Below are positions 29,334 to 29,928 of a stretch of DNA of 32,622 nt, piece by piece. The translations under genes were made by a program, and so were the position numbers. Within the stretch, counting starts at the first letter, position 1. The number at the start of each line of letters is the position of its first letter. Origin of the DNA: Symploca sp. SIO2E6. GTDB taxonomy: Bacteria; Cyanobacteriota; Cyanobacteriia; Cyanobacteriales; Coleofasciculaceae. Below the pieces are notes generated by a model that saw nothing but the letters and a program-made list of their open reading frames with translations, searched no databases and had not been told where the DNA came from. Where the stretch lies: contig JAAHGR010000016.1 of assembly GCA_010672425.1 (NCBI GenBank), positions 20,410 through 53,031 on the forward strand. The letters are read 5' to 3'.

Positions 29334-29339
29334 AATAGA

Positions 29340-29374
29340 TTTTAGATTTTAGATTTTAGATTTTAGATTTTAGA
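29340..29374. repeat. STRR heptamer (TTTTAGA)5
   Basis: Five 7-bp units just upstream of the TPR gene start; same unit as upstream of glmS. Confidence 0.96.
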
Positions 29375-29408
29375 ATTGAATCAATTACTCATTACTTGCA
29401 TCGCTATT

Positions 29409-29615
29409 TTAAGCAATCTGTAATATTTTTGGGTCTGGCAGTGGTTTTCCTGTCTGCTCATAACCATAGATCAGATCTTCTAAAACTTCCTTAGCATTTT
29501 CCAAAGCTTCTTCATAGGTTTCACCATGAGTGCGTGCGTAGTCTCCCCACTCTGGTAAACTTGCAACATAAGCCTCATCCGGGTCAGACCACTGAATTAA
29601 AATGCTGTATTTCAT
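29409..29615 (-). CDS. hicB: HicB-family antitoxin
   Basis: 68 aa; MKYSILIQWSDPDEAYVASLPEWGDYARTHGETYEEALENAKEVLEDLI. Confidence 0.9.
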   Translation of the reverse strand: MKYSILIQWSDPDEAYVASLPEWGDYARTHGETYEEALENAKEVLEDLIYGYEQTGKPLPDPKILQIA

Positions 29616-29617
29616 GC

Positions 29618-29836
29618 TTATTCTCCTTGCTGCATCTGTTCTAAATCTTTGAGTGCTACAGTGACTTGTTGTTCTTGGTAGGGCTTTGCATCACTACTAT
29701 CCTTACCAGATAAAACAATCGGCTCTGACAAAAGTTTATGAACCCAATAGGAATGACTGCCTTTGCCACGCTTTGGTAAAAGCGTAAATCCGGCTTGTTG
29801 TAGTAGTTGCTTCAGTTTCCTGACTTTTTTAGGTAT
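29618..29836 (-). CDS. hicA: HicA-family toxin, non-canonical ATA at the expected start (absent from ORF track)
   Basis: Open frame (I/M)PKKVRKLKQLLQQAGFTLLPKRGKGSHSYWVHKLLSEPIVLSGKDSSDAKPYQEQQVTVALKDLEQMQQGE*; 2 nt upstream of hicB; no ATG/GTG/TTG at the N-terminus. Confidence 0.75.
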   Translation of the reverse strand: MPKKVRKLKQLLQQAGFTLLPKRGKGSHSYWVHKLLSEPIVLSGKDSSDAKPYQEQQVTVALKDLEQMQQGE

Positions 29837-29893
29837 CCCAACTCATTAACTTAGAATTGATTATTATAGCAGTTCTTACATCTGCGAGATACA

Positions 29894-29928
29894 TCCAATT
29901 CCCAATTCCCAATTCCCAATTCCCAATT
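29894..29928. repeat. STRR heptamer (CCCAATT)4-5
   Basis: 7-bp units abutting the ruvB stop codon. Confidence 0.95.

Follow-up and report, generated by a model that had tools for sequence, protein, structure and literature searches.

A hicA toxin gene with ATA at its start position and the recurrence of such genes in Cyanobacteria

IF3 discriminates against AUA as an initiation codon. In Staphylococcus aureus reporters, AUA starts give ~10 to 30% of the output of AUG (PMC13009471); a change of ATG to ATA in Escherichia coli rpoS yields up to 5-fold less protein (PMC12864459), and Hecht 2017, as cited in that last study (PMC12864459), puts AUA in E. coli at 1% of ATG efficiency at most. Class 1 hicAB toxin-antitoxin modules, the closest described counterparts of the locus analyzed here, are compact and encode a HicB without a DNA-binding domain (PMC10865869). 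Both the hicA family and the principle of the AUA start are therefore already known; what is new is their repeated combination in cyanobacterial hicA, for which we found no description in the open-licence papers that we searched.

The hicAB module and its surroundings

The stretch of DNA that we analyzed (32,622 nucleotides; hereafter, the window) comes from the draft genome of a cyanobacterium, 8.96 Mb split over 1437 contigs. A hicA and hicB pair sits on its minus strand, with ruvB on one side and a gene for a TPR protein on the other. The toxin frame (29618 to 29836, minus strand) comprises 72 codons plus TAA and reads, from 29836 down, ATA CCT AAA AAA GTC AGG AAA CTG and onward to the TAA that ends at 29618; frame reading, a match to Pfam HicA_toxin, alignment, and predicted fold all support its assignment. 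A first-pass annotation had placed an intact 72-codon HicA-like frame directly upstream of hicB, and its coordinates were correct, although it left the minus strand of the frame unstated.

The first codon, ATA (29834 to 29836, minus strand), occupies the family start position, at which the aligned relatives carry ATG. Three codons upstream lies an in-frame TGA stop (29843 to 29845, minus strand), followed by GTT GGG, and the only canonical initiation codons within the frame, TTG at codon 36 and ATG at codon 68, both fall past the GKGSH motif. The sequence thus agrees with the first-pass reading that no ATG, GTG, or TTG is available at the N terminus, and we found no usable start of these three kinds in frame anywhere before that motif. 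CTG at codon 8 was considered as an alternative and rejected, since it precedes the motif but lacks a properly spaced Shine-Dalgarno sequence. The GAG previously reported 5 nt before the ATA is indeed there (29842 to 29844, minus strand), a weak Shine-Dalgarno-like triplet with an anti-Shine-Dalgarno duplex energy of −3.6 kcal/mol; the window hicA therefore has no strong Shine-Dalgarno sequence making up for the weak ATA.

A short out-of-frame ORF, ATG AGT TGG GAT ACC TAA (29829 to 29846, minus strand), overlaps the ATA codon, and in five of the eight ATA loci described below a short ATG ORF terminates close to the hicA start. Translational coupling from upstream was nonetheless rejected, because the corresponding fractions were 0.37 for shuffled upstream sequence and 0.35 for ATG loci, which places the observation within chance for eight loci. 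The leader RNA structure around the window ATA is not stabler than those of shuffled sequences (z = 0.12), and searches for Rfam families and terminators found none. A candidate −10 box, TATAAT (29863 to 29868, minus strand), lies 26 nt before the ATA without a good −35 element; it suggests that hicA transcription could persist, but a consensus promoter scan was negative and gave this no support. Short tandem heptamers, TAGATTT and CCAATTC, lie to either side of the hicAB module (29336 to 29375 and 29893 to 29926 of the window).

The antitoxin gene, hicB (29409 to 29615, minus strand), encodes 68 amino acids from an ATG start. It scored below the cut-off for PF15919 and matched the HicB-like family phrog_497 (E = 3.5e-11), and profile searches found no DNA-binding or other further domain in the protein. 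The gap between hicA and hicB is 2 nt, and a strong Shine-Dalgarno sequence for hicB, AAGGAG (29623 to 29628, minus strand), lies inside the end of hicA, 7 nt upstream of hicB. We recognized a class 1 hicAB by the order hicA before hicB, a HicA of 60 to 85 amino acids, a HicB of 60 to 90 amino acids without a DNA-binding domain, and close or overlapping genes. With proteins of 72 and 68 amino acids, a 2-nt gap, and a HicB free of a DNA-binding domain, the window pair is, by gene layout, a compact class 1-type module.

The product of the ATA frame retains the hallmarks of a HicA. It matches Pfam HicA_toxin (PF07927) at E = 4.4e-7 and 30.4 bits, above the curated cut-off of 27, and in an alignment of 35 sequences it keeps all 14 of the invariant columns, while the nearly invariant columns show just two departures, M to I at residue 1 and E to K at residue 7. 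The GKGSH at residues 24 to 28 supplies the family G-x-S-H motif with its predicted catalytic histidine, H28, which is invariant in the 35 sequences. A leave-one-out profile score puts the protein at the 54th percentile of ATG-started bodies. Its AlphaFold model (pLDDT 88.8) predicts the alpha-beta-beta-beta-alpha, dsRBD-like fold of the family, with helices at residues 5 to 14 and 52 to 70 and strands at 18 to 20, 28 to 32, and 40 to 43; the top structural neighbors of the model include the HicA structures 6g26, 4c26, and 4p78 (probability 0.85 to 0.99, TM ~0.6, E > 0.001). The substitutions that could be polarized to the window branch, 12 nonsynonymous and 13 synonymous, fall below the neutral expectation (P = 0.005, at an assumed neutral fraction of 0.74). 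This ratio is a constrained one, and most of the window branch would therefore have passed under selection, which fits a recent change of start and a continuing weak function alike.

The closest relative that we found is a hicA in a Nostoc metagenome-assembled genome (82% identity). ATG stands exactly at the start position in this gene as in the other relatives, and because all close relatives carry ATG, we infer that the change ran from ATG to ATA. The module as a whole was probably acquired by the window lineage. The ruvB-TPR junction contains no hicAB in either of the two same-genus genomes, spanning ~100 to 140 bp there versus ~600 bp in the window, which makes a gain in this lineage the most likely event, the alternative being a loss from both of the others. 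A TAGATTT-type heptamer is also present at the empty junction in one genome (G001, locus L205). Viral contigs, phages, and plasmids yielded no hicA relative closer than those in the genome collection. The window genome carries a second hicA (L002; G000:C528:13464-13670) that starts with ATG and stops at a TAG, a few codons short of the usual C terminus. It also has two infC (IF3) genes, L201 and L202; the likely start region of L201 reads ACG CCT GTG ATT, i.e., a GTG or a nonstandard start.

ATA starts among cyanobacterial hicA genes

We surveyed 391 cyanobacterial genomes (order-level) with a degenerate pattern of the N-terminal motif, which admits any start codon except CNN and is therefore blind to CTG starts, and with protein searches. 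By our count, the listings contain ~320 hicA-like start sites with ATG, 19 with GTG, 17 with TTG, 10 with ATA, and a few others; these frequencies come from the listings and not from the fetched loci, because every listed non-ATG site was retrieved, as against a fraction of those with ATG. Eight hicA genes combine ATA with a full-length body, an ATG-started hicB, and the lack of any in-frame upstream ATG, GTG, or TTG: the window gene, L018, L035, L062, L074, L087, L088, and L089, of which L035 entered the set by a different route from the other ATA genes. A hicA-like ATA match in genome G153 (L064) was set aside as a chance match to the pattern. The eight genes are spread over different genera, and the nearest relatives of every one of them in the set have ATG, so that the AUA is not conserved among close relatives and the eight ATA starts are most simply explained as independent changes. 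The hicB start, for its part, is canonical in all ~130 loci in which a hicB frame was found (the search motif missed the frame in 12 further loci), and loss of the start codon is therefore a feature of the toxin.

The leaders of six loci (L034, L035, L037, L071, L086, and L091) are almost identical, and most of them contain a start-stop ATG-TAA ~15 nt 5' of hicA. Within this leader clade, hicA starts with ATG in L034, L037, and L071, with ATA in L035 and in L086 (which has a frameshifted body), and with ATC in L091. At a separate locus (L095; G407:C2:5485961-5486170), a full-length and otherwise intact hicA has its ATG one base out of frame beside a run of A, which could reflect phase variation at a slippery homopolymer, a newly arisen frameshift, or a sequencing error.

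Weak start or lost start

The data argue for a strongly reduced toxin output, one that would be very low or zero. We think it probable that a lineage-specific change of ATG to ATA sharply cut translation of the toxin while hicB stayed intact, leaving the window hicA as a hypomorph or an almost silent toxin gene. In this scenario, a compact class 1-type hicAB was acquired by the window lineage, a G-to-A change then turned the hicA start into ATA, and translation of HicA would have dropped sharply. The antitoxin gene, having kept its ATG and strong Shine-Dalgarno sequence, would remain well translated and its product in excess. Rare initiation by fMet-tRNA at AUA would supply at most a small fraction of the normal HicA, easily held by HicB, and the module would then be quiet; it may still act or be heading for loss. 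The change would be one of several independent ones in Cyanobacteria, favored because weakening the toxin would be tolerated or would bring a benefit. Against this explanation we count the absence of a compensating Shine-Dalgarno sequence from the ATA hicA genes, the origin of the window in a single draft assembly, and the saturated synonymous divergence from the nearest relative.

The first-pass annotation had framed the case as either weak AUA initiation or inactivation of the start with the antitoxin intact; this was the right pair of alternatives, although it treated as a single oddity what recurs in seven other genes. The second alternative, complete loss, would have no meaningful HicA made from the AUA, the gene being a fresh pseudogene still in frame since its loss is recent and hicB an orphan antitoxin; we hold it to be possible and rather unlikely. 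Shine-Dalgarno pairing speaks in its favor: TTG-started hicA genes (L115 to L130) pair more strongly than ATG-started ones (P = 0.003), as if offsetting a weak start, while ATA-started genes do not differ from the ATG class (P = 0.89). Three ATA copies are truncated or frameshifted (L067, L075, and L086), the conserved G of KGSH is gone from two of the eight full-length ATA bodies (L062 and L074), and the survey set holds no case of ATA common to two intact close relatives, all of which fits complete loss as well. Broken bodies are not specific to ATA, however, as truncation also affects 20 of the 116 ATG-started genes that were fetched. Decay, moreover, has not gone further in ATA bodies than in ATG bodies (P = 0.12, from violations of conserved columns, and 0.24), nor, by such violations, than in GTG and TTG bodies. 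A pure null of loss also fails to predict the excess of ATA among lost starts. Neutral rates estimated at the fourfold sites of 65 close hicA pairs predict that ATA makes up 38% of start losses, versus 10 of 14 observed (P = 0.013); for intact genes the share is 8 of 9 (P = 0.003), or 7 of 8 when L035 is left aside (P = 0.006); this is a rough estimate, the pairs being nonindependent, the changes unpolarized, and CTG outside the survey, and the excess falls short of significance when third-position changes alone are counted (P = 0.10).

A bolder extension, which we regard as doubtful, is that AUA has repeatedly evolved in cyanobacterial hicA into a real, tolerated start of low output that sets the ratio of toxin to antitoxin and could respond to IF3, the start codon acting as an evolutionary dial. 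Less probable again is an AUA maintained as a possibly regulated low-level start, with toxin output following the IF3 level or the growth state. The eight intact cases and the excess of ATA over other lost starts would suit such maintenance, as would the precedent of infC and ccpN in S. aureus, where AUA initiation depends on the growth medium (PMC13009471); the conserved S. aureus cases, however, share both the rare start and a strong extended Shine-Dalgarno sequence, and the ATA-started hicA genes have neither. That the true codon is ATG and the ATA a base-call or assembly error is very improbable, for although the window genome is a draft and the difference a single base, seven further independent assemblies carry this change as well, some of them in long contigs (5.4 Mb in G433 and 4.2 Mb in G165), and it therefore marks a real recurring class.

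ORF callers limited to ATG, GTG, and TTG miss ATA-started toxins, and hicB then appears to be an orphan. If AUA yields a little toxin, a change of start codon would be a simple evolutionary taming of a toxin, with the module kept; if it yields none, the ATA genes would be snapshots of a loss in which the toxin goes first and the antitoxin later. Under either reading, the eight ATA genes together with their ATG relatives form a ready test set.

Comparison with known systems

The window hicA resembles infC, ccpN, and citZ of S. aureus (PMC13009471) in having an AUA start on an otherwise intact gene, from which lower initiation is expected. Initiation at the S. aureus codons is demonstrated by ribosome profiling and reporters, whereas any initiation at the window ATA is a prediction from sequence; the conserved S. 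aureus cases have strong extended Shine-Dalgarno motifs, in contrast to the weak GAG of the window gene. With the rpoS allele of E. coli O104:H4 (PMC12864459) it shares a single G-to-A change in the start codon and, by prediction, the hypomorphic outcome; rpoS, however, is a regulator mutated in the laboratory, and the window hicA is a natural toxin allele. Selective production of HicB by E. coli hicAB (Turnbull and Gerdes 2017, as cited in PMC5535158) likewise sets antitoxin output above that of the toxin, through a second promoter and autoregulation according to that citation, while in the window it would be the start codon, if anything, that does so. The module itself corresponds to class 1 hicAB (PMC10865869) in gene order, protein sizes, nearly overlapping genes, predicted HicA fold, and cyanobacterial distribution, and it matches the class 1 example of the Planktothrix phage PaV-LD; it differs from class 1 in having ATA where the toxin gene should have ATG.
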